A stretch of DNA of 39,503 bases from Acidobacteriota bacterium (GTDB taxonomy: Bacteria > Acidobacteriota > Terriglobia > UBA7540). This document shows, in pieces, positions 7,501-37,379 of the stretch. Location of the stretch: assembly GCA_003224635.1 (NCBI GenBank), contig QHZK01000045.1, positions 3,157 through 42,659 on the forward strand, given 5' to 3'. Within the stretch, counting starts at the first letter, position 1; each line of letters begins with the position of its first letter. The notes beneath the pieces are model-generated. The model ran no database searches. It worked only from the letters and a program-made list of their open reading frames with translations, and was not told where the DNA came from. Both the position numbers and the translations under genes were made by a program.

Positions 7501-7999
7501 CGCCCGGGCCGAGATACGCCAGTTGGATGAAGTTCCGCCCGTTCAAAGGCAGGTCTACGACCCGGCGGGTCGTTTCAATAGTCCCGAGCGAGGAGGTCTC
7601 CGCCTGCACCAAGGGCGGTGCGCCCGTCACTTCCACGGTCTGAGTCGTCGCCCCGACCTGCAAGGTTAAATCAACGCGCACCACTTGGTTGACGCCCACC
7701 TCGACGCCAGGCCGCACGGTCTTCCGAAACCCTTCTTTCTCCATGGTGACCGTATACGTCCCGATGCGGAGCAGAGGCGCTTCGTAGTATCCGGAGGCGT
7801 TGGTGGAGACTTGAACCCCCTGGTTGGTGGCCGTGTTAGTGATAGTCACCGAGGCTTCTGGAACGACCGCCCCGGACGCGTCAGAGACCGTCCCCACAAT
7901 TGCTCCACGGTCCACTTGGGCGAGGAGGCCCGAACAACCGAGGGTGGCCATCGAGACCAGGAAGAACAGGTTGGCCCTTTGCCGAACACGCGCACTCAT
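4526..7999 (-). CDS. Oar-like TonB-dependent receptor with carboxypeptidase-regulatory domain
   Basis: A large outer-membrane receptor (1157 residues), usual length for the acidobacterial Oar-like family. Residues 1-27 are a signal peptide (LFFLVSMATLGCSGLLAQ). A CarboxypepD_reg/Cna-B-like beta-sandwich follows at about 33-115 (GAIVGTVSDASGAVVPEASV; SGYYEAPLLRIGTYTVTMEK). The plug is at about 120-260 (RRVVDLPLNGRNFIQLAYLG; LNGVDNNEFG; IQEFRTEENAMSAEFGRGG). The rest is a beta-barrel ending in the aromatic C-terminus FALKWTF recognised by the Bam machinery. The start is supported by AGGAGG four bases before the ATG. Such receptors import ligands, probably oligosaccharides or peptides, using TonB energy; the substrate is unknown. 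It lies downstream of the CRTAC1 and TPR genes but has its own promoter. Confidence 0.93.
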   Translation of the reverse strand: MSARVRQRANLFFLVSMATLGCSGLLAQVDRGAIVGTVSDASGAVVPEASVTITNTATNQGVQVSTNASGYYEAPLLRIGTYTVTMEKEGFRKTVRPGVEVGVNQVVRVDLTLQVGATTQTVEVTGAPPLVQAETSSLGTIETTRRVVDLPLNGRNFIQLAYLGPGANGGQQGSNVSGGVFENERANEALSINGLRVSNNNFLLNGVDNNEFGLGGVVALPPPDAIQEFRTEENAMSAEFGRGGAAVNVAVKSGTNEIHGGLYEFIRNDVLDARNFFDQNQTDLTTGAQIPGTARPPFRRNQFGFFAGGPVRKDKTFIFGDYQGTRIREGLTNLETVPTNGERGGDFSDRLTGVNFSPCGDLSQIPVYDTGTIFNPFTTRNFTCSNGTVVLLRDPLSYNGQVNVIPPNLINAVGQNVVNLYPTATLPGITQNLLLNPSQSNDQDSFDVHFDNRFSDRDQFFVSYSYGSVRSILPGPLGILGGGDCCPSNSKDGNQHAGTGWTHSFNPTLLNDLHGGYFRFRVTGQPLNFGKALGQQLGIPNANRGDPTSSGLPNFDVSGYTGMGDSLWTPEFAVENIYQLADTVTWLRGRHSLKLGVDFRRQQRNFFQVTAPRGWYSFNGQYTQDLTTASGGNGLADLLLGPPNFFEQDALVGEYPTRYWDLAEFIQDDFHATPNLTLNLGLRYEVTSPANGRVGNFDLHRGVVVNSVGPNAVPHAGVEFDKSDWAPRLGLAYSPFGNKHTVVRSAFGVFYSAEANIFDDLGLNPPFLSVDSQSFPSSIIPPASQFVSAGFPAAVVFPDPANPSGTVRTNGPTRLMPRIFEWNFNVQQEVRENWVIQVAYVGTHAYRLWNHEASDLNQPLLPLDTNFSDATGNLGRPYFNVLPNLVTILPLDFPQLSVSYNSFQASVNHRFADGFNILAAYTLGKSLGTADGNVAGNIQNAHNVVAEKGAAPPDIRHHLSLSYLYELPVGRGKRFLGSLAGAPNVMLGGWQVSGITTLQSGQAYTANLSTDLSNTGTNSYRPDRIHNPYDFSFDTASAQSIDPLCGSGKQTLACFFNPSAFRPAPLAPGQLSAHVFGNGGNGNLRGPELVNFDVAMLKEFRVTERHRLQFRAEFFNIANTPNFALPGGTVDVAGGAAVTSTLSDNQREIQFALKWTF

Positions 8000-16837: not shown

Positions 16838-19087
16838 ATGGAAAATGACCCGATAGAAAGCAGAGAACTTGCTCCCGTCGAAGCTGCTCCTCAGGACCGG
16901 CTGAGCTATCCTCGCCCGCCCAAGATTACCGAGCTCGATGCCGGCAGTGATGAAGCCTATTCGTATGTGCGCGCCTACTGGCGCATGCTGGTCAGACACG
17001 GTTGGACGATCCTTACCGTGGCGTTCGTGGTCACAATGCTGGTCGCCCTGATTTCCTTCAGGCTGCAACCGGTGTACCAGGCAACGGCGCGAGTGGAGAT
17101 TGAGGCCGCGACGCCCGAGATCCGAACCCTGAGCGACCTTTTCGAGGCGATGCCTGCCGACGATATGTTTTTGCAGACCCAGGTCAACGTGCTGCAGAGC
17201 GATAACCTGGCCTGGCAAACGATCGAGCAACTGCGTCTGGGAGAGAATCCCGCTTTTGCTCCTCCGCTGAAGGGCGCTTCGCCCCAGCGAGGCGAGTCCG
17301 CCGAGGCGGAGAGCCCGCTCGTCGGGATATTCAAGGGCGGCCTGCGCGTCGAAATCATGAGGAACAGCCGCATTGCGGCCGTGAGCTTCGAGAGCCCCGA
17401 CCCGAAGCTTGCCGCTCAAGTGGTCAACGCGCTGGTCTATAACTACCAGGAATATAACTACCACAAGAACTACGAAGCGACGCGGAAGGCCTCCGGCTGG
17501 ATGGAACAGCAGCTCGACGAGTTAAAGGCCAAGGTGGAAAGGTCCCAGCAGGCGCTGGTGGACTACGAGCGAGACAACAAGATCATCAACATCAGCGACA
17601 AGGAAAACGTTGAAGAGAAGAAGCTCGGGGACCTGAGTAAAGAGCTGACCGACGCTCAAGCCGAGGTCGTGCGAGCCGAGTCCCTCTACAATGTGGCGCG
17701 CAACAACGAAAACCAAATGGCGTCGCTCGTGGGGAATGACCTGCTTTCACGGCTCGAGGAGAAATACGCCGAGCTGAAGTCGCAATACGTCGAAGCCCGC
17801 GAGCAGTACGGGCCCAATTTCCCCAAGGTCGTCAGGCTCAGGGACCAGGCCGAAGAAATCCGGTCCAGCCTCGAAGCCGAACGGAAGCGCATCGTGGAGC
17901 GCTACCATGGGGAGTATGTTGCCGCCCAGCAGAGGGAGGCCATGATCTCGGAGGCGCTGGCCCGGCAGAAGGTTGAACTCGAAAAGCTGAACCAGCTTCT
18001 GATTCAGCAAAATATCCTGAAGCACGAATTTCAAACCAACCAGCAACTCTATGAGGGCCTTCTCCAGCGGCTGAAAGACGCTACCCTCTCCTCGGGCCTG
18101 CGAGCGACCAACATCCACATCGTCGATCAGGCGCGCGTTCCCGGCGCACCCGTGCGGCCGAGGAAGCTCTTTAACGTCACCATTGGCTTGCTGGTCGGCC
18201 TGATCTTGGGGGTCGCCCTTGCTTTCGTCCAGGAGGCGCTGGATGATTCCATCAAGAGCATCGGGCAGGTGGAGCGCTACCTTTCAACCAACGCCCTGGC
18301 GGTGATACCGCTGGCGCGCACCGTGCGATCGCGCTCGCTGGATCGCGGCGGCAACGGGTCAGCGGACCGGCGCGAGGCCGTGGAGTTGACGCTGCTCAAG
18401 AGGCCGGCCTCGGAACTGGCGGAAGCCTATCGCTCGATGCGCACGGCGATCCTGCTCGCAACGTCGCCACGCCCGCCCCAGGTGATTGTGATGACCAGCG
18501 CGCAGCCGAGCGAGGGCAAGACCTGCACCTCACTCAACCTGTCGCTGGCGCTCGCCCAGCGAAGGGTGCGAGTGCTGGTCATCGACGCCGACTTCCGCAA
18601 GCCGGGCATTGCCGCAGCGATGGGGATGTCCAACGAAAGGGGTCTCAGCAACATTCTCAGGGGGGAGCAGAGCGTGGACGAGGTGCTGCTCCAGGCCCAC
18701 ACCCTCCCGAACCTCTGGGTGCTTCCCGCCGGGCCCGTCCCCAGCAACCCGACCGACCTGCTGTCCTCGCCCGACATGGCCAGGCTGGTCGAGGAGCTGA
18801 AGCAGCGGTTCGAGCACATCGTGCTGGACAGCCCGCCCATCCTTCTGATGACCGACGCTACGGTGCTTTCCATTCTCTCGGACGGCGTAGTGCTGGTGGT
18901 GGAGGGGGGTGTGACACCGCTTGGGGCCGTGCTGCGCGCTCACCGGATCATCGAGAACGCGGGCGGAAAGATTCTGGGCGTGGTCTTAAACAAGGTTGAC
19001 GTCCGCCGCGGCACCTATTATGGCTCATACTACGGTTACGGACGCGGCTACTATAATTACTACTACGGCGCGCGGTCGGGGCGATGA
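16838..19087 (+). CDS. wzc: Wzc/ExoP-type polysaccharide co-polymerase with BY-kinase domain
   Basis: A 749-residue inner-membrane chain-length regulator fused to a bacterial tyrosine kinase. The Wzz domain starts at about 40 with TM1 (WTILTVAFVVTMLVALISF, about 54-73), followed by a periplasmic coiled-coil region and a GNVR-like part (APVRPRKLFN) just before TM2 (about 445-464). The cytosolic kinase has the deviant P-loop MTSAQPSEGKT (about 551-561), Walker A' VLVIDADFRKP (about 578-588) and Walker B HIVLDSPP (about 660-667). A C-terminal cluster of ten tyrosines (about 729-744; YYGSYYGYGRGYYNYYYG) is the autophosphorylation tail. It sets chain length and couples polymerisation to export. 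First gene of the polysaccharide locus; only a weak ribosome site precedes ATG 16838. Confidence 0.95.
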   Translation: MENDPIESRELAPVEAAPQDRLSYPRPPKITELDAGSDEAYSYVRAYWRMLVRHGWTILTVAFVVTMLVALISFRLQPVYQATARVEIEAATPEIRTLSDLFEAMPADDMFLQTQVNVLQSDNLAWQTIEQLRLGENPAFAPPLKGASPQRGESAEAESPLVGIFKGGLRVEIMRNSRIAAVSFESPDPKLAAQVVNALVYNYQEYNYHKNYEATRKASGWMEQQLDELKAKVERSQQALVDYERDNKIINISDKENVEEKKLGDLSKELTDAQAEVVRAESLYNVARNNENQMASLVGNDLLSRLEEKYAELKSQYVEAREQYGPNFPKVVRLRDQAEEIRSSLEAERKRIVERYHGEYVAAQQREAMISEALARQKVELEKLNQLLIQQNILKHEFQTNQQLYEGLLQRLKDATLSSGLRATNIHIVDQARVPGAPVRPRKLFNVTIGLLVGLILGVALAFVQEALDDSIKSIGQVERYLSTNALAVIPLARTVRSRSLDRGGNGSADRREAVELTLLKRPASELAEAYRSMRTAILLATSPRPPQVIVMTSAQPSEGKTCTSLNLSLALAQRRVRVLVIDADFRKPGIAAAMGMSNERGLSNILRGEQSVDEVLLQAHTLPNLWVLPAGPVPSNPTDLLSSPDMARLVEELKQRFEHIVLDSPPILLMTDATVLSILSDGVVLVVEGGVTPLGAVLRAHRIIENAGGKILGVVLNKVDVRRGTYYGSYYGYGRGYYNYYYGARSGR

Positions 19088-20379: not shown

Positions 20380-21720
20380 ATGTCAACCTCGTTGACCGCA
20401 ACGCGCGCGTGTCCGGTTGCACTGGAAACGACGGCACAGGAAAGCGCTCGCGCAGCATCGGCCTTATGGTTCTCGGCAGGGCGGGTCTTGCTCCTCCTGA
20501 CGCTGCTCGGCGCGCCGCTCGCCTTCGGCGCGGTTGAAACATGGGCGTGGGCGTCGCTGGCGGTTCTGGTCTGTGTGAGCCTCTTCCTCTGGACGCTCGG
20601 CAGCGTCCGGCAGCGAGTAGCGCGGATCTGGTGGTCGCCGCTGTATCTCGTCGGGATGCTATTCCTTCTCCTCGGAGGCGCTCAGTATTCCGGTCACCTC
20701 ACCCTGGACCCGATCCGGACTCGCGAGTCACTGCTGAAGCTCGCGGCCTATCTGCTTCTCTTTTTCGTCGCCACGCAGCTCGTGGTGAGTGGGGGCGAGG
20801 AGTCTCTCGTGCGCTTCGGGTTCGTGGTCGCCGCTTATGCGTGCGCCCTGGGGTTGTTTGCCATGCTGCAGTTCTGCTCCAGCAACGGGCGGATCTACTG
20901 GACGGTCAGACCGGAGAACGCTTGGCCCTTCGGCCCGTATGTGAATCGGAACCACTACGCCGGGCTGATGGAGCTGCTGATCCCGATGGTCATCGGCCTT
21001 CTCCTCTCTCGACCCGAACACGATCCGAGGCGCAAGTTTGTGGCCGTGGCGGTCCTGGTCGCGGTCGCGTCCCTGCTGCTCTCAGGCTCGCGGGGAGGGC
21101 TGATTTCTTTCCTGGTCGAGGCCCTGTTGCTGGGAGGCATCTTCTGGATCCACTCGAAGCGCGAAGGCCGCCGCGCCTCGGCGACGCTTCTGGCCCTGGG
21201 AGGGGCGGCCGCCGCTACGCTCTTCTTCTGGCTGGACCCTGGAGAAATCTCAACCCGTCTGGCGACGGCCTTCGAGTACTCCCACGCGGCAGAAGCAACC
21301 AACGACACCCGGCTGATGCTGGCGCGGGACTCGCTGCGCATGGTGCGGGACCATCCCTGGGCGGGGGCCGGCCTGGGCAGCTTTGAGGATGTTCATCCCC
21401 GCTACCAGAGTTTTGCTTCGGACCTAGTGTTCACTCACGCCCACAACGACTACGCCGAGGCGCTGGCCGAAGCCGGGCTGGCGGGCGGAGCGCTGGTCCT
21501 GCTGGCGCTGGTGATCTTCTTGCGCCGGGCCTTCACGGACCTGCGCGAGCGCCTGCGATACGAAGCCGGCTGGATCCAGGTGGGCGCGGCGGTGGGCTGT
21601 TCGGGCCTGCTCGTCCATAGCCTCGCTGACTTCAATTTCCACATCCCGGCCAACGCGGCGTGGTTTTCTGTTTGCCTGGCTGTAGCCTTGTCGAGTTGCT
21701 GCAAACGATTGAGCTCATGA
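20380..21720 (+). CDS. O-antigen ligase/polymerase family membrane protein (Wzy_C)
   Basis: A 446-residue protein with about ten membrane helices (VLLLLTLLGAPLAFGAV; LAVLVCVSLFLWTL; LYLVGMLFLLLGGA; LLKLAAYLLLFFVATQLVV; AVAVLVAVASLLLSGSRGGL; LVEALLLGGIFWI and more). WPFGPYVNRNHYAGLMELL and LLLSGSRGGLISF are hallmark sequences of the WaaL/Wzy_C (PF04932) family. The large periplasmic loop includes DTRLMLARDSLRMVRDHPWA then GAGLGSF and THAHNDYAEALAEAGL, where Arg and His act in glycan transfer. It would either ligate or polymerise undecaprenyl-linked repeat units. Its stop overlaps the next gene as ATGA. No clear ribosome site precedes ATG 20380. A second, unrelated polymerase-like gene lies at 28477. 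Confidence 0.92.
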   Translation: MSTSLTATRACPVALETTAQESARAASALWFSAGRVLLLLTLLGAPLAFGAVETWAWASLAVLVCVSLFLWTLGSVRQRVARIWWSPLYLVGMLFLLLGGAQYSGHLTLDPIRTRESLLKLAAYLLLFFVATQLVVSGGEESLVRFGFVVAAYACALGLFAMLQFCSSNGRIYWTVRPENAWPFGPYVNRNHYAGLMELLIPMVIGLLLSRPEHDPRRKFVAVAVLVAVASLLLSGSRGGLISFLVEALLLGGIFWIHSKREGRRASATLLALGGAAAATLFFWLDPGEISTRLATAFEYSHAAEATNDTRLMLARDSLRMVRDHPWAGAGLGSFEDVHPRYQSFASDLVFTHAHNDYAEALAEAGLAGGALVLLALVIFLRRAFTDLRERLRYEAGWIQVGAAVGCSGLLVHSLADFNFHIPANAAWFSVCLAVALSSCCKRLSS

Positions 21721-22451
21721 GCGAATACCCGGAAAGAATATATGCCAGATACTCGGAGATTCGACCCCATGTGACTGTTCCGAGGAGTAAGGATAACCTG
21801 CTCGTGGGCCGGGAACGGGTCTTCCGGAAGGTGCTCCTTCCCTTGCTGCCGGCGGACAAGCAGGCCAGGATTCTCGACCTCGGCTGTGGTTACGGCGAGT
21901 TTCTTTGCTTCCTTCAGAAGGAAGGCTACCAGAACGCCGCCGGAATCGATTTGAACCGGCGCCAGCTCGATGCAGCGGAGCGCCTCGGGGTAAGAAACCT
22001 TCGGTACGGCGACGCGAGGGACGCGCTACTCGAATCATCAAACACACTTGACTGCATCTCTGCCATTGACGTCCTGGAACACATCCCCAAGGGTCAGATT
22101 CTGAGTTTCCTGGATACCGTCTACGGAGCTCTGCGAACGGGCGGGAGATTTATTTGCCAGGTGCCCAATCTCGCCGCCTTCTACACTCCACTTTTCTACA
22201 TGGACTTTAGCCACGAGAGTCCTTTCACGGCAACCAGCCTGACTCAGGTGCTGGAGCTGGCCAATTTCACCAATGTGCGGGTCTACCCGAGGGGCCCCGT
22301 TGCCACGAGCGTGAAAAGCGCAGTGCGGTGCGTGCTGTGGAAGCTCATCAGTTCGGGCCTGCGGTTCATCCAGACCGTGGAAGGAGGACCGCATCACCCG
22401 TCGGACTCGATTTATACCGCCGCCATCCTTGCTGTCGCGGACAAGGGCTGA
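21717..22451 (+). CDS. Class I SAM-dependent methyltransferase
   Basis: A 244-residue methyltransferase of the Methyltransf_23/UbiG-like group. The SAM-binding motif I is ARILDLGCGYGEFLCFLQ; then AAGIDLNRRQLDAAERLG (motif II acid at the end of beta-2), YGDARDALLE, and ISAIDVLEHIPKGQILSFL (motif IV with the 'DVLEH' signature), followed by ALRTGGRFICQVPNL. ATG 21717 overlaps the ligase stop (ATGA), so the genes are translationally coupled; an upstream extension of the frame lies inside the ligase gene and is ignored. Cytosolic. In this context it probably methylates a sugar or capping residue on the repeat unit; the acceptor is unknown. Confidence 0.92.
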   Translation: MSEYPERIYARYSEIRPHVTVPRSKDNLLVGRERVFRKVLLPLLPADKQARILDLGCGYGEFLCFLQKEGYQNAAGIDLNRRQLDAAERLGVRNLRYGDARDALLESSNTLDCISAIDVLEHIPKGQILSFLDTVYGALRTGGRFICQVPNLAAFYTPLFYMDFSHESPFTATSLTQVLELANFTNVRVYPRGPVATSVKSAVRCVLWKLISSGLRFIQTVEGGPHHPSDSIYTAAILAVADKG

Positions 22452-22588
22452 GGTTAGGGCCCTGCGAGGGCGAAGCTTGCTGCGACCACCTCCCTCAGGC
22501 AATCGTTCTCGCTCATGGAACCGGGCAGGGCCGGCCCCGGTGGAGGACTTCGCGTTCACGCCTTGCGTCCCGACGAGAGCGAGCGCAG

Positions 22589-23455
22589 GTGCAACAGCGT
22601 GAAAAGTTGAGCGCCGAGGAGATGCTCGCCTTCTACGAGCAGGTCCACCGGTCTGCAATTGAGCGCGACGCGGCGGACGATCTGAGCCCCGCTCTTCATT
22701 GGGCAGGGAACCGGTTCTTCAACCGGTTCACGGACTACGCGCACCGGCTCGGAATGCGAAAGGCGCTCGCTTACCTGGATACGGAATGGGGCTCGCTCAA
22801 GGGCCGTTCGGTGCTCGACGTTGGGTGTGGACGCGGCCGCTGGACCAGAGAATTTGCTTCCCGCGGATGCCGCGTTACGGGAGTGGATATTTCGCCTGAG
22901 GCGATCAGCCGCTTGGCCAAAGAAATGCCCCAGCATACCTTTGTGGTGCGAAGGGTCACGGAGGCCGGGTTTCCTCCCGGCGCCTTCGACCTTGTGAACT
23001 CTGCCACCGTGCTGCAACATCTGCCGGACGAAAGCCAATGGAGCGCTTTGCGGCAGATTGGAGTTTCGATCAAGGACGGCGGTTACTTTGTGGCGCTCGA
23101 AAATTGCTCTGCCTTTGCAAACCCGTTCGTGTTCCCCCATTCTCCGGAAGATTGGGTCCGGATGATCGAATCCACAGGGCTGCGGCTGCGCGCGTCTTGG
23201 GGCTGCAACTTTGAGATTCTCTTCCGGGCCTGGGCGCGGTTAAGCGCCGGCCTGCGTCGTCGTTCGGCGGGCGGAACAGAGGTCGCGGCCGGGAGGGGCG
23301 CCCCTCCGTCATTCTCCCGCTCGAGAAACCTCCTGCGCTCCTTTGTGTACAGCTCGCTCGCCGTGGCGTCCTACGCGCCAGAATGGTGCTGCCACCAAGT
23401 GCCTCTGGCCGCGCCGACCCACGTCGCCATGGTATTTCAGAAACCCAAGGCGTAG
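22589..23455 (+). CDS. Class I SAM-dependent methyltransferase
   Basis: A second methyltransferase, about 288 residues. Motif I is RSVLDVGCGRGRWTREFASR; motif II GVDISPEAISRLAKEM; then FDLVNSATVLQHLPDESQW (motif IV) and IKDGGYFVALENC. The C-terminal part (SWGCNFEILFRAWARLSAG) is basic and ends VAMVFQKPKA. The frame extends upstream to 22328, but that part is not convincing as protein and overlaps the previous gene. The likely starts are GTG 22589 or ATG 22622 (MLAFYEQVH, with GAGGAG directly before it); I took the former, with doubt. It ends six bases before the flippase-fusion gene. Substrate unknown; methylation of the polysaccharide or its lipid carrier is inferred from context. Confidence 0.83.
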   Translation: MQQREKLSAEEMLAFYEQVHRSAIERDAADDLSPALHWAGNRFFNRFTDYAHRLGMRKALAYLDTEWGSLKGRSVLDVGCGRGRWTREFASRGCRVTGVDISPEAISRLAKEMPQHTFVVRRVTEAGFPPGAFDLVNSATVLQHLPDESQWSALRQIGVSIKDGGYFVALENCSAFANPFVFPHSPEDWVRMIESTGLRLRASWGCNFEILFRAWARLSAGLRRRSAGGTEVAAGRGAPPSFSRSRNLLRSFVYSSLAVASYAPEWCCHQVPLAAPTHVAMVFQKPKA

Positions 23456-23461
23456 CTCGGA

Positions 23462-25759
23462 ATGAGATCCCTTGATAATGCAATCTCGGTCGGCGATCGG
23501 CGAGCCGAAGCTGAGTCGTCGGAATCGGCGACTTTGACGGGCCTGAGGCGAGCTTTAGATATTCCTCGGCTTTTCAGGTCACGCTCGAGGACCGACTTGG
23601 GACTGACCGTCCTTGCCCAGCTTAGCCTGCTCGCTCTTGGCGCTTTGACCGGGGTTCTATCAGCCCGTGTGCTGGGTCCGCAAGGTCGAGGCGAACTTGC
23701 CGCCCTGACGCTCTGGCCTCTCGCATTGATTTCCCTGGCAACCCTGGGGATGAACCAATCCATCGTGTTCCACTCCGGAAGGAACTTATACTCCCTTTCA
23801 GAGATTTGGACATCATCGGCCGTTATCGGACTTGGGCAATCCCTGGCCGTCATTCTCGTCGGCCTGTTGGTCCTACCGCTGGCCTTGCGAAATTATTCGC
23901 CCTCTGTGAAACACCTCGGGTTGCTCTTTCTCGTCATAATGCCCTTGCTGCTCTTCCAAGGTAGCTCCTATCCGGCTAACATCGTGCAGGGCAAGCTCGA
24001 CCTTGACTCCTTCAATTTGATTCGGTTGCTGCCTGGTCTGGCCTATGCACTCGGTCTGACAGCTCTCTGGTGGCTCAAGATAAGCAGTATTTCTTACGTG
24101 GTGGCTTCGCAGATTCTGGGCTTGGCTGTCGCTACGGTCTTCGGGTACTGGATCTTCCTGAGAAAGTTCCCGGTCGGTCTTGCGTGGCATTCGGGCGCCG
24201 GCGCGAGTTTGTTGAGATTTGGATGGCAAAACCAAGCCGGACAGGTATCAAGCTATGTCAACCAACGCCTTGACCAGCTCATCCTTTCCCTGTTTATCGC
24301 TCCGAGACAGTTGGGTTTATATGCGGTGGCTGTGACCGTTTCGTCAGCCGTCTGTTTCATACCCCAAGCAATTGGCGTCGTGACGCTGGCCCAAGGCGTG
24401 AACCTTACCCCGGAACTAGCGAAGACGATGATCTCAAAGTCGTTCCGTCGTTCCCTGAAGTACCTCCTCCTGGCGTGCGCTGTCTTATTTACCGTCGCAC
24501 CTTGGCTCATCACCCTCGCCTTTGGAAGCCGATTCTCTGACGCGACCCTCCCGTGCAGGATTTTGTTGTGCGGCATGGTAGGCGTCGGTGCGGCTCAAGT
24601 GCTTTACGACGGCGCGCGCGCTTTGGGACAGCCTCTGCTGGTGTTCTACGCGGAGGGTCTTTCGATGGTTGTAACCGTTGTTGGGCTGTGCCTGCTGCTG
24701 CCACGCTACGGGATTGTGGGCGCGGCCATCACGTCAACCGTCGCCTACTGCTCCGCGCTTGGTGTCACGCTCGCACTCTATCGGTTCCGGCTAGGTGTCG
24801 GGTTACTCAATCTCGCGGGAGGAGCGAGCGGTGTACAAGCGGAACCTATCGGAACGGCGGCGGCCCTAACAAGGAAAGCCAAGCTGCTCGAGGGAGCGTG
24901 CAGGCGTTGGGCGGCGTTCGCAGGGACTCCTCGCGGGCTGTTTAGAGTCGTGAGAGCGTGTGCCGCGCTGAATCCTCGCTTTAGGCGCTACCAGGCTACT
25001 CTTGTGGATGGGTCCGAGATATGTGTGGACCTCAAGGAGTCGATGTGCTTCCCAATTTTGTTGCACGGCTGCATCCCCCACGAGGTCTCCGAGGCCCAGG
25101 TCTTGGAGCGTTCAACTCGGGAAGGGGACGTTTTTGTGGACGTGGGAGCGAACGTCGGATTCTATACAGCGCTTGCGCGCCGGTGGGTGGGCTTGTCAGG
25201 AACGGTCGTCGCCTTTGAACCCAACCCGAATTGTGTCCAGTTATTGCGGCAATCTTTCGGAACAGATCCCAACGTTTTAATCATTCCTAGCGCACTCGGC
25301 AAGGAAAAGGGCACCGGTCAGTTATGTGTCCCTTACCACGGTGATAGAGCGACTCTCGGAAAGCGCCCATCAAAGAGCGCCAGGGTTTACGAGGTCGCTG
25401 TCGACACATTGGACGATTTCCTGCGTCAAAGGCACCTGCCTTCTCCCTCAGTTGTCAAGATTGATTGTGAGGGGATGGAATACCTGGTCCTTCAAGGAAT
25501 GGAGGGCGTCCTAAAAACGCCGCGCCCTCCGGTTATCGCCTTCGAGTACATCGAGCCATTGACTCAAGACTTCACGGTTTCCCTCCCGGAGATCATCGAG
25601 TTCGTCCAGGAGAAATCAGGTGGCGCCTATCAATTCTTCAGGATCGATTATGCCGGAAAACTCAGGGACCACGACCTCCACGTGGCGACAGCACAGAACG
25701 ACCTCGTGGCGGTTCCCAGTTGGAGACAGGATTTACTGGTCGGTGTCGTGGGCGGCTGA
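23462..25759 (+). CDS. Fusion: Wzx-type flippase + FkbM methyltransferase
   Basis: A single uninterrupted frame of 765 residues holds two proteins normally separate. Residues about 45-450 are a polysaccharide flippase of the MOP superfamily with 12 or so membrane helices (LTVLAQLSLLALGALTGVL, SARVLGPQGRGELAAL, QAGQVSSYVNQRLDQLILSL, PRQLGLYAVAVTVSSAV). The ARxLGPxGRG motif after TM1 and the D-x-lilS motif are classic Wzx marks. A linker of about 30 residues follows. Residues about 480-760 are an FkbM-family methyltransferase: DVFVDVGANVGFYTALARR (motif I), VVAFEPNPNCVQLLRQSF, VDTLDDFLRQ, VVKIDCEGMEYLVLQGM. The join puts a cytosolic methyltransferase on the C-terminal tail of the flippase. No internal start with a ribosome site was seen in frame at the join. 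It suggests methylation coupled to lipid-linked repeat-unit flipping. Confidence 0.9.
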   Translation: MRSLDNAISVGDRRAEAESSESATLTGLRRALDIPRLFRSRSRTDLGLTVLAQLSLLALGALTGVLSARVLGPQGRGELAALTLWPLALISLATLGMNQSIVFHSGRNLYSLSEIWTSSAVIGLGQSLAVILVGLLVLPLALRNYSPSVKHLGLLFLVIMPLLLFQGSSYPANIVQGKLDLDSFNLIRLLPGLAYALGLTALWWLKISSISYVVASQILGLAVATVFGYWIFLRKFPVGLAWHSGAGASLLRFGWQNQAGQVSSYVNQRLDQLILSLFIAPRQLGLYAVAVTVSSAVCFIPQAIGVVTLAQGVNLTPELAKTMISKSFRRSLKYLLLACAVLFTVAPWLITLAFGSRFSDATLPCRILLCGMVGVGAAQVLYDGARALGQPLLVFYAEGLSMVVTVVGLCLLLPRYGIVGAAITSTVAYCSALGVTLALYRFRLGVGLLNLAGGASGVQAEPIGTAAALTRKAKLLEGACRRWAAFAGTPRGLFRVVRACAALNPRFRRYQATLVDGSEICVDLKESMCFPILLHGCIPHEVSEAQVLERSTREGDVFVDVGANVGFYTALARRWVGLSGTVVAFEPNPNCVQLLRQSFGTDPNVLIIPSALGKEKGTGQLCVPYHGDRATLGKRPSKSARVYEVAVDTLDDFLRQRHLPSPSVVKIDCEGMEYLVLQGMEGVLKTPRPPVIAFEYIEPLTQDFTVSLPEIIEFVQEKSGGAYQFFRIDYAGKLRDHDLHVATAQNDLVAVPSWRQDLLVGVVGG

Positions 25760-25925: not shown

Positions 25926-26057
25926 TCGGGGCCGCCTGCGGCTTCTCGGAATCACATTTGCGATCATTTGCGATAACTTCTTCAGCAGCCCGCTAGCTCA
26001 GCTACACGGGCCAGAGGCCGGGATGCAGGCTTGGGGGAAATGGAACGGGAATTGGGA

Positions 26058-27254
26058 ATGAGTGCTCCTTCGCTGGCAATCCTGATGTCCCACCCCTCCA
26101 ATTTGGACGGCCCCTTGTTTTCCAAGATCGCGGCATCAGCCCCGTTCGACCTGACCGTTTACTACCTCGAAACCGACCAGATAGCTGAAAAGGTCGATCC
26201 TGAACTGGGCTTTTCACCGAACTGGGATATTCCCGTGGTATCGGGCTATCGCTCGATGCTGTGTCCGCGCGGATTCATTCGCAGGGTGCGCTTTCTTTGG
26301 CGAGAATGCTTTGCCGGAGCCAAGTACGGTTTGGTGATTGTGCCTGGTTATAACCGGCTCGATGTAGCCCTGCTGGCTCAGTTTTCTCGCCGCCAGGCGC
26401 TCGGGATGCGCCTGGATGCGGTATCGATCTATCCTGAGCCGCCCTGGAAAAGGCGGCTGAAGAGGATGGCGCTCAAGCAAGTTCTTCGGCGCTATGCGGT
26501 GTTTCATCCCGTGGGTTCGCTCACCGAACGTTTTCTTCAGGAATTGGGCGTCCGATCAACCCAGATGTCCCGCTTTCCCTATGCTGCTGATAACGGGTAT
26601 CTGAGTACAAGAGCCGAGCGATTCCGCAGGGAAAGGGAGGGGCTGCTGGCAGAGTTAGGGATTCAAGCTGGAACGTTTGTGGTGCTCGGGGTGCTCAAGT
26701 TCGTCCCAAGGGAAAACCCGATGGAGCTACTGCGCGGCTTCTGTTCGTTTCGCAAGAGGTTTCCGGATTCGGCGCTGATTCTGGTGGGAACCGGGCCGCT
26801 GGAAGGGGAAATCAGGGAGTGTTTAGGGGCGATGAACCTTTCCGAGGCGGCTCGGCTGGTGGGATACGCACGGTACAGCGACCTCCCCCAATGGTACGGA
26901 ATTTCAAACGTGTTTGTACACCCGGCCGCGCGCGAACCCTGGGGTGTGTCGGTCAACGAGGCCATGGCGTGCGGACTCCCTGTGGTCGCCTCGGACAGAG
27001 TGGGCGCGTCCCACGACCTTGTGATCGAAGGCCTGAACGGATTTTGCTACCCTAGCGGAGACTCCGAGGCTCTTGCGGATTGCCTGGGAAAGATTGCTTC
27101 GCGACCGGAACAGGGCAGGGAAATGGGAAAATGGTCTCAACGCATTGCTCACCGGTGGAGCCACGAAGAAAGTATCGCTTCCCTCAACGCGATGCTGCAC
27201 AAGATAGTAGGAATGAGCTCGGCCTGCCCTGCCAGTGCTGCGTCATCGACGTAG
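26058..27254 (+). CDS. Glycosyltransferase family 4 (GT-B)
   Basis: A 398-residue glycosyltransferase with the GT-B fold. The N-terminal domain is the acceptor side (LAILMSHPSNLDGPLFSKIA). The C-terminal Glycos_transf_1 domain has VVLGVLKFVPRENPMELLRG, ALILVGTGPLEGEIRECL, VGYARYSDLPQWYGISNVFV and REPWGVSVNEAMACGLPVVA, the last being the E-x7-E nucleotide-sugar motif. I chose ATG 26058 (MSAPSLAILM), preceded by a G-rich stretch; ATG 26040 and TTG 26031 are also in frame. Cytosolic or membrane-associated, it adds one sugar to the lipid-linked repeat unit. Donor and acceptor cannot be told. It follows a repeat-bearing gap of nearly 300 bases after the flippase fusion. Confidence 0.92.
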   Translation: MSAPSLAILMSHPSNLDGPLFSKIAASAPFDLTVYYLETDQIAEKVDPELGFSPNWDIPVVSGYRSMLCPRGFIRRVRFLWRECFAGAKYGLVIVPGYNRLDVALLAQFSRRQALGMRLDAVSIYPEPPWKRRLKRMALKQVLRRYAVFHPVGSLTERFLQELGVRSTQMSRFPYAADNGYLSTRAERFRREREGLLAELGIQAGTFVVLGVLKFVPRENPMELLRGFCSFRKRFPDSALILVGTGPLEGEIRECLGAMNLSEAARLVGYARYSDLPQWYGISNVFVHPAAREPWGVSVNEAMACGLPVVASDRVGASHDLVIEGLNGFCYPSGDSEALADCLGKIASRPEQGREMGKWSQRIAHRWSHEESIASLNAMLHKIVGMSSACPASAASST

Positions 27255-27427: not shown

Positions 27428-28480
27428 GTGAAGATCTTACTTTCTGCGAGACTCTTCCCCGATTCCTTCGGTCGTAATATCGCCGCTGCGGCGGAGCATA
27501 TGGGGCATACGGTTCGCACCGTGGAAGAGAACGTTGAACATCGGTATTTCAACAAGTACTGGAGAGCCTTCTGGGTCCTTCTCCCCAAAGTTTTCCCGGC
27601 GGTTGAAACGCGGCGACACCGCAGCCTGCTCCGAGCTGCCAAAGAGTTCGATCCGGATTTGACTCTACTGACGGATGGCACAGTGCCACCGGCAGTCATG
27701 GATCAACTGAAGCTCGTAAACAACGGCAAGATTGCAGCGTGGTACCCGGATCATTTGGCCAATCTTGGCCGTCAGTATCTGCTGGCATCCGACTTCGACG
27801 CTTGCTTCTTCAAGGACCCTTACATGGCCGAACAATTCCGGGATAAACTGGGAATCAACGCTCACTACCTTCCCGAAGCGTGCAACCCGCTCTGGCACCG
27901 CCGGGTCGAACTGACGCCCGACGACCGCAGGAGGTACGAGTGCGACCTCTGCACGGCTTCGAACATGTATTATTACCGCGCCCGGATCCTCGAAATGTTC
28001 AAAGACTACGACCTCAAGATTTGGGGAATCAGTTATCCCTCCTGGCTGGAGTCGCCGCTGCGCCCCTGGTATCCCGACGTCTATGTGGCCGAGCTGGAGA
28101 AAGCCAAGGCTTTCGCTGCCGCCAAAGTCGTGCTCAACACGATGCATTACGCCGAAATCAAAGGAGTTAACTGCCGCCTGTTCGAGGCCGCGGGTTGCGG
28201 CGCCTTCCAGATCGCCGACTGGAAGCCGGGCCTGGCCGAGCTGTTCGAGCCGGAGCGGGAAATTGTGACCTTCCGGACGCGAGAAGAACTCAAGGAGAAA
28301 GTTGACTACTACCTTGCCCATGCCGACGAGCGGGGCGAAATCGCGGACCGGGCGTACCGGCGAGCGCACCGGGAGCACACCTACGAAATCAGGCTCCGAA
28401 AAATGTTCGACGTGCTGGGCCTTGCCTCAGAAGCCGAGGCTCCAAAGGCGCACGCGGCCGCCGGAGGGAACAACTATTGA
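27428..28480 (+). CDS. CgeB-like GT-B glycosyltransferase
   Basis: A 350-residue protein of the CgeB/Glyco_trans_1_2 type. It opens with MKILLSARLFPDSFGRNIAAA and has IAAWYPDHLANLGRQYLLA (an aspartate-rich turn typical of the family), FFKDPYMAEQF, then KAFAAAKVVLNTMHYAEIKG and VNCRLFEAAGCGAFQIADWK, the family's C-terminal nucleotide-sugar site ('nxRxFEaxgcGaf'). It ends LAELFEPEREIVTFRTREEL, the usual tail 'l..lf.pg.eiv.f.s.eEl'. GTG 27428 is preceded by GAGG about nine bases upstream. Its stop overlaps the next gene as TTGA. A cytosolic sugar transferase of the repeat-unit pathway; sugar unknown. Confidence 0.88.
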   Translation: MKILLSARLFPDSFGRNIAAAAEHMGHTVRTVEENVEHRYFNKYWRAFWVLLPKVFPAVETRRHRSLLRAAKEFDPDLTLLTDGTVPPAVMDQLKLVNNGKIAAWYPDHLANLGRQYLLASDFDACFFKDPYMAEQFRDKLGINAHYLPEACNPLWHRRVELTPDDRRRYECDLCTASNMYYYRARILEMFKDYDLKIWGISYPSWLESPLRPWYPDVYVAELEKAKAFAAAKVVLNTMHYAEIKGVNCRLFEAAGCGAFQIADWKPGLAELFEPEREIVTFRTREELKEKVDYYLAHADERGEIADRAYRRAHREHTYEIRLRKMFDVLGLASEAEAPKAHAAAGGNNY

Positions 28481-30090
28481 CGACGGGAATTCACACCCAG
28501 CGCGAGTGGACAGCCACCGCCGCGGTCGGGCGCAAATGGGCCTTGGCTCGGCGGTTTGGGGAATTCAATCCCTTGCATTTCCTGCTGCTGCTGAGCCTGG
28601 CGTTGGGAGGCACGACGCTGCTCGCGACCGTGCTCGTCCACGGCGTTGACAGGATCGAATTCGAAGTCTACCTTTTGCTGCTGGTGCTTTATGCGGCGGC
28701 GACGGTCTCATTTCTCCTTTCGCAGGGCAGAAGCGGCCGGCTCCGTTTTTTCGACATTCCTGTCTTCACCACGATAGTTTGCTTCCTTCGTTTCGGGCTC
28801 GTGCCCCTGGCAGCCTATCTGGACGCCGATTCGCTGAATCAATCCTTCCATCACGGGGAGTACGCGCAACTCAATCGATCCCTGGCATATTTCATACTCG
28901 GAATGTTCACTTTTTGGACCGGTTGCCATCTCTCGCGCCGGAGGAAGGCCAGAATCACTGACGCGAGGGAAGGCGTCAAAGGGACCCCCGAGCTGCGTCC
29001 GGTGAATTGGGCCGTCATTCTGTTCCTGGCCAGTCTGGCCACGCGAGCCTATATTACATGGAATTACGGCTACGGCTATGCGCTGGACATGGACGCCTAT
29101 TTTCAGAATCTGGCCTTTTTCCAGTTTTGGGCGTTCTTTTCAGATCTTGGGGTGTACGCACTGCTTCTCGCCACCATCGAGATGTGCTGCCATCCCCGCG
29201 ACGCCTTACGCGTGGGGCTCTTTGTAGTCATCTTCCTGAACGAACTCCTCTGGGGTGCGCTCTCCGGCATGAAATATGACCTGTTGAGAGGCTTCATTAT
29301 CCTGGCGTTAGTCGTCTCGATCACGAAGGCCAGGATCGAAAAAAAGTGGATCGCGGCCACGTTGCTGGGTCTGATTGTAGTCTACCCGGTACACGACCGC
29401 TATCGAAATATGCTTCGAGGAGGCCAAGTTGACGTGAGGCGTGTTGGGTCGCTGGGAGAGGCGGGTGCCATGGCCACCGCGCAGACCGCAAAGACGGAAG
29501 CGGGCTGGAGCGGCTGGCTTCGGAGCGGGTGGCAGCATGCGGTGTCGCGCCTGGACCTTTTGCAGGGTATGGCGATCGTTATGTCCTTGGATGCCGCGCA
29601 GGCCGACCGCGTGCGCACCGACGAGCGCTGGTGGATGCTTCCTTTCTACCCGTTCGTCCCGCGCCTCCTGTGGCCGAAAAAACCGGTCCTGAACAGTGGG
29701 GTCAGATTGAGCCTTGTGCTCGGGTCGACCAAGGAGACGTCGACTGCCCTTACCTACCCTGGAGATTTGTATATGGACTACGGACTTCCGGGCATCCTGG
29801 TGGGGATGTTTGTGCTCGCCGTTGTGGGACAGTTGCTTACCAACACCGTGACGGGGTCTTTCCCCAAGCGGAGCCTGTTCTTCTACTCAGCGATTTTTGT
29901 CTCATTTGCTAATATGATGGAAACGCAGGCGTTTCCTGTCTGGACAGGCGTCATCAAGACCATGGTGATCTTCGGGGTTCTGAAGTACCTGATCTACGGC
30001 CGTGGGCCGCGAACCGTAGGCAAGCGCGTGCGTCAGGGCGGCGCGGCTTCAGCCATGCCGAAGGGCGCCCCTTCACCTTCAGCTACTTGA
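28477..30090 (+). CDS. Wzy-like O-antigen/oligosaccharide repeat-unit polymerase
   Basis: A 537-residue membrane protein with about 11-12 helices (FLLLLSLALGGTTLLATVLV; FEVYLLLLVLYAAATVSFLL; VFTTIVCFLRFGLVPLAAYL; LAYFILGMFTFWTGCHLS; GVYALLLATIEMC; LFVVIFLNELLWGALSGM and others). The loop WMLPFYPFVPRLLWPKKPVL matches the 'PRfiWPdKP' motif seen in oligosaccharide repeat-unit polymerases of the Wzy kind, and TYPGDLYMDYGLPGILVGMF is the next helix entry. The start is TTG 28477, overlapping the previous stop (TTGA). It would join lipid-linked repeat units at the periplasmic face. With the Wzy_C protein at 20380, the locus has two candidate polymerases or ligases, so one may act as ligase. Confidence 0.85.
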   Translation: MTTGIHTQREWTATAAVGRKWALARRFGEFNPLHFLLLLSLALGGTTLLATVLVHGVDRIEFEVYLLLLVLYAAATVSFLLSQGRSGRLRFFDIPVFTTIVCFLRFGLVPLAAYLDADSLNQSFHHGEYAQLNRSLAYFILGMFTFWTGCHLSRRRKARITDAREGVKGTPELRPVNWAVILFLASLATRAYITWNYGYGYALDMDAYFQNLAFFQFWAFFSDLGVYALLLATIEMCCHPRDALRVGLFVVIFLNELLWGALSGMKYDLLRGFIILALVVSITKARIEKKWIAATLLGLIVVYPVHDRYRNMLRGGQVDVRRVGSLGEAGAMATAQTAKTEAGWSGWLRSGWQHAVSRLDLLQGMAIVMSLDAAQADRVRTDERWWMLPFYPFVPRLLWPKKPVLNSGVRLSLVLGSTKETSTALTYPGDLYMDYGLPGILVGMFVLAVVGQLLTNTVTGSFPKRSLFFYSAIFVSFANMMETQAFPVWTGVIKTMVIFGVLKYLIYGRGPRTVGKRVRQGGAASAMPKGAPSPSAT

Positions 30091-30246: not shown

Positions 30247-31425
30247 ATGGTCCTCGGACTCTTTGGCTCCCTGCTGCAATGCGGAGGAATCGAAAGGGCC
30301 AACCGGCTCATCGGGGCCGTGCTGACCGAAATGGCCCGTGACCAAGGCCAGAGGTGCGAGCTTCTCTCCCTCAATGAGCCACCCGGTCCGCTGTCGTTTG
30401 TCATGGGGGGGCGTCAGTACTCGGGTATAGGATTCGGGCGCCAGAAACTGAAATTCGTGGTCCGCGCACTGAGGCTGGCGCCCCGAGTCCGGGTGGCTTA
30501 CTTGGCGCATCCTAATCTGGCGCGGGTGGGGTTGGTCATGCGCCTGGCGAAGCCGGGGCTGCAGTATTGGGTCGCCGCTCACGGGTTTGAAACCTGGGAA
30601 CCCCTCAACCCGCTGGGCCGGTGGGCGCTTCGCGCGGCGCAAGGAGTAACAGCGCCCAGCCGTTTCACGCTCGAACAACTTCTCCAAGCCCAGGGCCTCG
30701 AACCCAGCAAGGTTAGTCTGCTCCCGCATGGTTTGGAGGTGGGCTTCGCGGATTCAGTATTGAACGACCCCGACCCCCCATGGCCGTCTCAGCCCGGACT
30801 CATCCTCACGGTTGCGAGGCTTGCAGCGTCCGAACCAGGCAAGGGCGTGGACTCCGTCATACGCGCCCTTCCGCAGGTCTTGAGGGCGGTCCCCCGCGCT
30901 TCCTACGTCGTGGTTGGCGACGGGGACGACCGCCCCCGTTTGCAACGGCTCGCCAAAGGGACCGGAGTACACCAGAGCGTTCATTTTGTCGGACACCAGT
31001 CCGAGGCGGAGCTGAAAAGCTACTATCGGAAAGCCGAGGTCTTCGTGATGCCGAGCTGCCAGGAAGGCTTTGGTATTGTGTTCTTGGAGGCGATGGCCTT
31101 TGGAAAGCCGGTCATCGGCGCAGCCTCGGGGGGGATACCTGACATCGTGATCGACGGCGCGACAGGTTACCTCGTGAACTACGGCGACGTGGACACCCTG
31201 GCCGCCCGCCTCATCCGTCTCCTGGCCGATCCGGATTTGCGCCAGAAAATGGGCGTCGCTGCCAGGCAGCGAATAAAGGAAAACTATACCTTTGACCATT
31301 TCCGGCGACACCTTCGCCAACTCTTCGAATCTCACGACGCGTCCCATCGCGCCCATCAGCCTTGGGGCAGAAGCGTTCGCGGGGAGGACCGCGAGACCGC
31401 CCCGCCCGGGCGATTGGCGTCGTGA
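30247..31425 (+). CDS. Glycosyltransferase family 4 (GT-B)
   Basis: A 392-residue retaining glycosyltransferase. The N-terminal domain carries GLFGSLLQCGGIERANRLIG (glycine-rich acceptor loop) and YWVAAHGFETWEPLNPLGRW. The C-terminal domain carries LILTVARLAASEPGKGVDSV, ASYVVVGDGDDRPRLQRLAK, VHFVGHQSEAELKSYYRKAE and CQEGFGIVFLEAMAFGKPVI (the E-x7-E motif), followed by GGIPDIVIDGATGYLVNYGD. GGAG lies seven bases before ATG 30247. The last 35 residues are Arg-rich and look disordered. It lies downstream of the hairpin at 30108 and close ahead of another GT-B gene. It adds one sugar of the repeat unit, which one is unknown. Confidence 0.94.
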   Translation: MVLGLFGSLLQCGGIERANRLIGAVLTEMARDQGQRCELLSLNEPPGPLSFVMGGRQYSGIGFGRQKLKFVVRALRLAPRVRVAYLAHPNLARVGLVMRLAKPGLQYWVAAHGFETWEPLNPLGRWALRAAQGVTAPSRFTLEQLLQAQGLEPSKVSLLPHGLEVGFADSVLNDPDPPWPSQPGLILTVARLAASEPGKGVDSVIRALPQVLRAVPRASYVVVGDGDDRPRLQRLAKGTGVHQSVHFVGHQSEAELKSYYRKAEVFVMPSCQEGFGIVFLEAMAFGKPVIGAASGGIPDIVIDGATGYLVNYGDVDTLAARLIRLLADPDLRQKMGVAARQRIKENYTFDHFRRHLRQLFESHDASHRAHQPWGRSVRGEDRETAPPGRLAS

Positions 31426-35447: not shown

Positions 35448-37379
35448 ATGTGCGGCATAGCAGGAATAGCTGGAGAACCGAGCGGACCCTTCATCCGCGC
35501 CATGACCCGCGCGCTGGTCCACCGCGGTCCGGACGGCGAAGGCTATTACTCCGCCCGGGGTGTAACGCTGGGGCATCGACGACTTAGCGTCATCGACCTC
35601 GAAACCGGCTCCCAGCCCATGACCACCGCCGACGGGCGATACACCATCGCGTTTAACGGAGAGATTTACAACTTCCGGGAGCTGCGGAAGGAACTCGAGT
35701 CGCACGGCGTGCGTTTCCGGACGGAGTCGGATACGGAGGCGCTCCTCCACGCCTACGCGCGCTGGGGCAAGAGCTCACTCACCAAGCTGGTGGGGATGTT
35801 CGCCTTCGCGCTCTGGGACTCGAAGGACCGTCGCCTGCTTCTCGCCCGCGATCGCCTCGGCCTCAAGCCCCTGTATTACGCCGAGGTCGGCGGAAGCTTC
35901 CTCTTCGCGTCCGAGATCAAGGCTCTGCTCGCGCATCCCGAGGTCGAGCGCGAACTCGACCCCGTCGCCCTGGATGATTATTTGACCTACCTTTACGTTC
36001 CGGCGCCCAGGACCATTTTCCGGGGGATCCATGAACTTCCTCCCGCGCACTGGCTGGAGTGGCAGGACGGGAACGCGAGGCGGGAATGCTATTGGGACGT
36101 TTGTTTCCAAACCCAGCGGCACTCCTTCCAGGAAAGCGTCCTCGAAGCGCGAGAGAAGCTGGACGAGTCCGTCAGGGCCAGGTTGGTGAGCGATGTGCCG
36201 CTGGGAGTCTTTTTGAGCGGGGGCCTCGATTCGAGCACGGTCGCGTATTTGATGGCGCGGCACTCGTCGGAACCCGTGCGCGCTTTCACGCTCGGGTTCA
36301 GCGAAGGCGCCCATCTCTATAACGAATGGCAGTTCGCGCGCGAGGTCAGCGACGCCATCGGGGCCGACGCGCGCGAGCTCGTCATCCCGCCGCCCTCCAC
36401 GGCCTTGCTCGAAACCGTCACGAGGTACTTCGACGAGCCCTTCGGCAATCCCACCAATCTTCTGCTTTATCAGTTGTCGGAGGCGGCCCGGAGATACGTC
36501 ACCGTGGCCCTGGTGGGCGACGCGGGCGACGAAGTCTTCCTGGGCTACCCGCGCTATCAAGGGGCGGTCCTGGCCCAGGGGTATCGCGCCGCGCCGCTCA
36601 TGCTGCGGCAGGCGCTCGGGCGCTGCGCCTCATTACTTACCGAGCCCGGCAACGGGAGCCACTTTACGCGCCGGCTTCGGGAGTTTCTTACGGGCGCCAC
36701 TCAACCCCCTGAAGAGATGTATCTCGACTGGATCTCATACTTCAACCGGCCGCTGCGCCGGCGGCTCTACACCTCGGACGCTCAGCGCGAGCTCGGGGAT
36801 TACGACTCCTCGCAGTTTCTGCTGAGGCTGTTCTCCCGGAGCGCCTCCAAGGACTTGCTGGACCGCATCAGTTATGTGGACTTGCACTCCTACCTTCCTT
36901 ACAACATCCTTCGTTACTCCGATCGCATGAGCATGGCCCACGGCCTGGAGATCCGGTGTCCCTACACGGACCACCGGCTGGTTGAGTTTGTCGCCGGCTT
37001 GCCCTGGCAATACAAACTGCACCGCACTGAGACCAAGGTTCTCTTGCGGAACGCCGCCAAACCCTGGCTGCCGAAGAGCGTCTTCCGCCGCTCCAAGATG
37101 GGGCTGAATCCTCCGATGGGTCTATGGCTGCGCGAACACTTGAAGCCGTCACTCGGAGAGTATCTGTCGACGGAGTGCGTTCGCCGCCGCGGATACTTCC
37201 GGACGGAAACGATCGAAGAGTTGGTCCGAGATCACCTGAACGGGCGCCGGGACTATTCACTTCATCTCTGGGCGCTCATTTCTTTTGAAGCATGGCACCG
37301 CCAGTACCTCGACTCCAGACCGGACCCGTCGCTCTCGCTGACGAGCGCCTCCGCCTGCCCGAGTTCGCGCCTCGCCTGA
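35448..37379 (+). CDS. asnB: Asparagine synthase (glutamine-hydrolysing)
   Basis: A 643-residue class II amidotransferase. The N-terminal glutaminase domain starts MCGIAGIAG, so Cys2 is the nucleophile after Met removal, with RALVHRGPDGEGYY, GHRRLSVID and AFNGEIYN as further marks. The C-terminal synthase domain has the pyrophosphate motif LSGGLDSSTVAYLMARHS at about 256-273, VGDAGDEVFLGYPRY and DRMSMAHGLEIRCPYTDHRL. It uses glutamine and ATP to amidate aspartate or, in polysaccharide loci, possibly a uronic acid or other carboxylated sugar. Such genes commonly sit next to heparinase-like lyases in exopolysaccharide loci. The 3' end overlaps the lyase gene by 88 bases. Confidence 0.95.
   Translation: MCGIAGIAGEPSGPFIRAMTRALVHRGPDGEGYYSARGVTLGHRRLSVIDLETGSQPMTTADGRYTIAFNGEIYNFRELRKELESHGVRFRTESDTEALLHAYARWGKSSLTKLVGMFAFALWDSKDRRLLLARDRLGLKPLYYAEVGGSFLFASEIKALLAHPEVERELDPVALDDYLTYLYVPAPRTIFRGIHELPPAHWLEWQDGNARRECYWDVCFQTQRHSFQESVLEAREKLDESVRARLVSDVPLGVFLSGGLDSSTVAYLMARHSSEPVRAFTLGFSEGAHLYNEWQFAREVSDAIGADARELVIPPPSTALLETVTRYFDEPFGNPTNLLLYQLSEAARRYVTVALVGDAGDEVFLGYPRYQGAVLAQGYRAAPLMLRQALGRCASLLTEPGNGSHFTRRLREFLTGATQPPEEMYLDWISYFNRPLRRRLYTSDAQRELGDYDSSQFLLRLFSRSASKDLLDRISYVDLHSYLPYNILRYSDRMSMAHGLEIRCPYTDHRLVEFVAGLPWQYKLHRTETKVLLRNAAKPWLPKSVFRRSKMGLNPPMGLWLREHLKPSLGEYLSTECVRRRGYFRTETIEELVRDHLNGRRDYSLHLWALISFEAWHRQYLDSRPDPSLSLTSASACPSSRLA

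Follow-up and report, generated by a model that had tools for sequence, protein, structure and literature searches.

A single open reading frame in the 39,503-nucleotide stretch of Acidobacteriota DNA analysed here (the window) was confirmed by translation, Pfam and NCBIfam analyses to encode a Wzx-type flippase, a short linker and an FkbM methyltransferase, as a preliminary description of the sequence had proposed (Table 1). We consider it about an even chance (roughly 50%) that the product of this gene is a bifunctional protein in which the flippase carries a tethered cytoplasmic methyltransferase and lipid-linked units would be methylated at the site of export.

Table 1. Coordinates of the fusion gene, its parts, its neighbours in the window and other flippase fusions of the phylum (prefix L, locus handle).
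Feature	Position	Strand	Size, evidence or remark
Whole fusion gene	23462..25759	+	765 aa; ATG start, stop at 25757-25759; single open frame
Wzx/MOP flippase domain, residues about 45-455	23594..24826	+	PF01943, PF13440; stand-alone orthologues; model
Linker, residues 456-480	24827..24901	+	alignments, codon listing, BLAST boundaries, pLDDT
FkbM methyltransferase half, residues 481-765	24902..25756	+	PF05050, TIGR01444; alignment to stand-alone FkbM L042
Pfam FkbM core, residues 560-717	25139-25612	+	Methyltransf_21 (PF05050)
Wzz/tyrosine autokinase co-polymerase gene	16838..19087	+	PF02706, GNVR, AAA_31; syntenic
Wzy_C/O-antigen ligase-type polymerase gene	20380..21720	+	PF04932; syntenic with relatives
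Upstream class I SAM methyltransferase gene	22328..23455	+	PF13649/PF08241; maximal ORF, true start probably later
Downstream glycosyltransferases	26031-27254, 27428-28480, 30247-31425	+	order common to relatives
Wzy-like membrane protein	28477-30090	+	537 aa; weak Wzy matches; conserved downstream of flippase in relatives
Flippase-NodS fusion	L088:1482-3812	+	777 aa
Flippase-NodS fusion	L090:694-3162	-	823 aa
Flippase-NodS fusion	L092:953-3289	-	779 aa
Flippase-NodS fusion	L118:2122-4267	+	fragments
Flippase + Methyltransf_11	L076:2171-4369		733 aa
GT4 + flippase + asparagine synthase	L077:3700-8331		1544 aa
Flippase + GT4	L089:2428-5388		987 aa
Flippase + GT2 (C-terminal)	L113:667-3474		936 aa
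GT2 (N-terminal) + flippase	L114:1462-3759		766 aa

Translation of the plus strand of the window revealed no internal stop in the 765 codons of the fusion frame, and no N bases were present in the window. As the remaining two plus-strand frames contain 31 and 17 stops over this interval, an open frame of such length with two conserved domains is not explained by chance. The corresponding copy in the host genome (G000:C315:26618-28912) was likewise a single stop-free frame. Both folds were modelled by AlphaFold with high confidence, which fell to low values at residues 457-466 within the linker (pLDDT below 50) and at residues 500-536, ahead of the FkbM core. A PDB sequence search with the fusion protein (P0001) gave no matches, and the best structural match of the whole model in the PDB was the E. 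coli flippase WzxE (9g9p; TM normalised by target 0.80), followed by MATE and MurJ structures. Both halves look intact.

In the N-terminal half, Polysacc_synt (PF01943) matched residues 48-297 with 56.5 bits (cut-off 28.2) and Polysacc_synt_3 matched residues 68-361 with 41.6 (cut-off 23), and the pLDDT of the domain was mostly about 90. The preliminary description had given the flippase about 450 residues; its presence was borne out, but the core comprises about 410 residues (45-455). A hydropathy scan resolved 11 clear helices of the 12 in the MOP fold, and the model points to the 12-helix fold. Judged from its sequence, this half is a complete Wzx-type flippase, predicted to translocate lipid-linked oligosaccharide. 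It shares with WzxE and other Wzx flippases of the MOP superfamily the fold, the Polysacc_synt match above cut-off and the Wzz and Wzy neighbours, and differs from them by the FkbM part, which adds about 290 residues at the C-terminus.

The C-terminal half scored 65.9 bits with Methyltransf_21/FkbM (PF05050; cut-off 22.7) and 94.1 with TIGR01444 (fkbM_fam; cut-off 37.7). It contains the motifs VFVDVGANVGFY, FEPNPN and KIDCEGME; VDVGANVGFY, FEPNPN and KIDCEGME could be aligned to FkbM proteins that stand alone, the SAM-binding glycine motif and the KID-x-EG motif both being intact, and identity to the stand-alone FkbM protein L042 was 34% over 277 residues. This half is thus a predicted complete FkbM methyltransferase with putative O-methyltransferase activity. 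Like other members of the family it has intact motifs and scores above both curated cut-offs, whereas it differs from them in having no start codon of its own and in being attached to a membrane transporter.

The fusion gene sits in a conserved Wzz-Wzy-Wzx exopolysaccharide locus. The Wzz/tyrosine autokinase gene scored above the cut-off of TIGR01007 and below that of TIGR01005, and the class I methyltransferase gene ends 6 bases 5' of the fusion gene. With the Wzy_C protein and the Wzy-like membrane protein, the locus may have two polymerase-like proteins. It also holds a radical SAM protein, a heparinase-like protein and a relative of XrtA-type amidotransferases; the last, an asparagine-synthase-like protein at 35448-37379 (+), was closest to the XrtA/PEP-CTERM amidotransferase model, with 608 bits, below the cut-off of 816.9. 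On the minus strand, 4526-7999 encodes a 1157-aa outer-membrane beta-barrel protein with an N-terminal carboxypeptidase-regulatory domain. In relatives, Wzz, Wzy_C, Wzx, a glycosyltransferase, the Wzy-like protein and a further glycosyltransferase follow each other in similar order, with the flippase unfused, and the fusion is therefore the locus's own flippase. The gene after the flippase varies, being a methyltransferase gene in L026, a PMT_2 membrane glycosyltransferase gene in L027, a GT2 gene in L028 and a Glyco_trans_1_2 gene in L031 and L087; in L029 an FkbM gene lies two genes upstream of the flippase. The preliminary description had named a stop codon and a separate start between the two domains in related genomes as evidence against a fusion. 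Relatives indeed carry the flippase alone at this position of the locus, but no FkbM gene directly after it. A lone flippase followed by a variable slot suggests that the FkbM half was probably added at this slot in the present lineage.

As the fusion is known from one assembly, a draft of 601 contigs with 84% completeness and 5% contamination, the junction was considered with care. Stand-alone flippase orthologues from genomes of the family and class were 43-52% identical to the fusion (60% in one fragment); their similarity ended at residues 439-453 of the fusion, and they terminated 11-29 residues further on (51 in one case). The nearest stand-alone FkbM proteins aligned from residue 479 (L042, 34%) and residue 462 (L084, 30%), the first in-frame start of L042 being a TTG at its codon 7, equivalent to about residue 465 of the fusion. 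From these boundaries the junction comprises about 10-25 residues of unshared sequence. No in-frame ATG, GTG or TTG was present between codons 441 and 496 of the fusion, and a CTG at 24884 with AGGA upstream was the only in-frame near-start before codon 493. A simple artefact is made less likely by this lack of a normal start codon from which FkbM could be translated as a gene of its own.

At 24818-24833, GGAGGAG is followed after 6 bases by a GTG at 24831, which lies out of the fusion frame and whose own frame closes after 12 codons. This GTG may be a relic of a once separate FkbM start. It also bears on the possibility that an assembly or base-call error in this single draft genome has joined two separate genes, as the FkbM frame would come to lie behind this GTG, with its good ribosome site, if a base had been dropped between 24831 and about 24866; the flippase, however, would then extend about 40 residues beyond residue 453 and the FkbM gene would overlap it by about 110 bases. 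If a base error had removed a stop codon, FkbM would still have no ATG, GTG or TTG start, and a spurious extra base would give the flippase a normal end but again FkbM no start. GC3 is alike in the two halves (0.66 and 0.64), and one and the same gene cluster flanks both sides of the junction. As no single-base error restores two ordinary genes, we regard an artefact as improbable.

In order to define how common this pairing is, one phylum and a plasmid collection were searched. In 40 genomes of the window's order, with every candidate scored, 133 Polysacc_synt and 85 FkbM matches shared one frame, that of the window itself, and no second flippase-FkbM fusion was present among the matches listed from the class and phylum samples, from which long frames were fetched and tested. 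When a flippase profile was run against the FkbM frames exceeding about 560 aa, which came from more than 20 loci, only that of the window contained a flippase. None of 64 plasmid records had one place covering 80% of the fusion protein, and a search of genome contigs with the fusion protein gave only distant FkbM matches. Matches to a mixed flippase and FkbM profile (A1), in which the FkbM rows were misaligned over the flippase, were counted as flippase only. The long frames of flippase homologues were inspected individually, and several (L028, L067/L075, L078, L112, L115, L116 and L117) proved to be open-frame extensions, upstream of or outside the gene, with no second recognised domain. The 709-aa FkbM frame of L039 is no fusion either, as the flippase gene that it overlaps is encoded on the opposite strand. 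The flippase-FkbM pairing was thus singular in the genomes sampled, in line with the preliminary description, and because the data contained no close homologue of the fusion, no conservation across its junction could be demonstrated.

The accompanying statement that FkbM enzymes usually stand alone was correct in part, but several FkbM proteins of the phylum are fused to glycosyltransferases (GT2 in L068 and L071, GT4 in L033) or to another methyltransferase (L073 and L074). In the latter two (L073:2246-4054 and L074:1275-3173), a class I methyltransferase precedes FkbM in proteins of about 540-630 aa according to Pfam, and L079, L080, L081 and L082 are probably of the same type by their like length and FkbM position. 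Two further FkbM domains on contig C8 of genome G096 (252867-253391 and 260051-260614) lie in open frames of 7415 and 2829 aa, which are probably giant synthetase genes.

The suggestion that a flippase-methyltransferase fusion has no parallel was not supported, since the window's family has a conserved NodS-type fusion and the phylum contains further flippase fusions. Three proteins consist of a flippase with a C-terminal NodS-like methyltransferase, L088 sharing 63% identity with L090 and 57% with L092 along almost their entire length; a fourth copy (L118) is in fragments, interrupted by masked bases, and in L091 the flippase is a different one and the NodS part is truncated. Their conservation across species argues that the NodS-type fusion is no artefact, and on this count it appears better supported than the fusion in the window. 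It was not found outside the window's family in the genomes sampled, and a search of the host genome with L088 gave no matches at E <= 1e-30. Like the protein of the window, these are flippases followed by a SAM methyltransferase, of about 780-820 aa, but they belong to another flippase subfamily and another methyltransferase family (PF05401 as opposed to PF05050) and are not homologous to it as fusions. A literature search, with most subscription journals outside its reach, found no paper describing a pattern of flippase-enzyme fusions. As flippase fusions in the phylum are varied (Table 1), the protein of the window can be placed as one member of a loose, convergent class; it is unusual, yet seems to be an instance of a design that recurs.

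These parallels bear on a second, tentative explanation, namely that the fusion is real but neutral, two adjacent genes having been joined when the stop of the flippase and the start of FkbM were lost, while both halves work as they would alone and tethering is not under selection. Its occurrence in a single genome among those searched, the short and poorly structured linker and the out-of-frame GGAGGAG and GTG, if these are indeed relics of a separate FkbM start, are consistent with such an origin. However, flippases have been joined to sugar-modifying enzymes more than once in the family and phylum, and one such fusion is retained in three to four genomes, a pattern not expected of neutral accidents. 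We consider neutrality less likely than tethering.

According to the tethering explanation, which we prefer, the N-terminal 12-helix part would flip the undecaprenyl-diphosphate-linked repeat unit of the exopolysaccharide, while the FkbM part, held by a flexible linker at the cytoplasmic face, would O-methylate a sugar of the lipid-linked unit waiting at or entering the flippase. SAM is cytoplasmic, and the topology of Wzx proteins is established. Tethering would fix modification and export at a 1:1 stoichiometry in the same place, and a larger share of units would thereby be methylated before leaving for the periplasm, where SAM is absent. In Pseudomonas aeruginosa, Wzx crosses the membrane with 12 segments and takes over the unit from the cytoplasmic side, where it is assembled, and residues important for function are located in the cytoplasmic half (PMC3412221), a topology and site of assembly in keeping with this proposal. 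If the N-terminus is cytoplasmic and the number of helices even, the C-terminus of the fusion, and hence FkbM, should face the cytoplasm. As hydropathy gave only 11 clear helices and the positive-inside bias was modest (18 versus 12 K+R), both of which count against tethering, this placement rests on homology to WzxE, which puts the C-terminus on the side of SAM and of the lipid-linked unit and so agrees with the earlier proposal of methylation at the flippase. Further support comes from the single frame with its two complete conserved domains, from the confident two-domain model with its flippase half closest to WzxE, from the shared locus order that identifies the fusion as the locus's own flippase and from the absence of a conventional FkbM start between codons 441 and 496; the conserved NodS-type fusions indicate, in addition, that flippase-methyltransferase fusions can be maintained. 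On the other hand, a close homologue of the fusion itself was absent from the data and FkbM proteins may act on other substrates; we infer both the substrate of FkbM and the benefit of tethering.

The preliminary description had further envisaged that flipping could be licensed or blocked by a terminal O-methyl group which the FkbM half adds, a quality control coupled to the flippase. The mycobacterial MviN, a MurJ-type flippase, resembles the fusion in being a MOP-type flippase that handles a lipid-linked precursor and bears an additional domain at its C-terminus, and offers a precedent for regulation through such a domain. In Mycobacterium tuberculosis this domain is a regulatory pseudokinase (PMC12599244); MviN thus differs from the fusion in handling a peptidoglycan precursor and in carrying no sugar-modifying enzyme. 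A precedent for modification that controls export is WbdD, the E. coli O9a kinase-methyltransferase, which caps the chain by phosphorylation and methylation, unmodified chains not being exported (PMC3482155). There, as proposed for the fusion, methylation of a polyprenol-linked glycan is tied to export, but WbdD belongs to an ABC-transporter pathway and not to the Wzx pathway, has no flippase in the same chain and is a different methyltransferase. As the flippase of the nearest relatives has no fused methyltransferase at all and nothing in the sequence of the fusion bears on gating, we consider such control unlikely. The broader notion of an FkbM checkpoint, at which flipping would occur only after, or only if not, methylated, with flippase fusions as a general coupling of modification and export, seems similarly doubtful.

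Where the modifying enzymes of Wzx pathways act, and whether flippases read the modification, are difficult to address as long as the parts are separate proteins. With one enzyme placed at the flippase, a natural fusion would allow a test in a single gene, in which flipping and methylation could be told apart. That flippases have repeatedly become fused to methyltransferases and glycosyltransferases within one phylum suggests a physical coupling between completion of the unit and its export.
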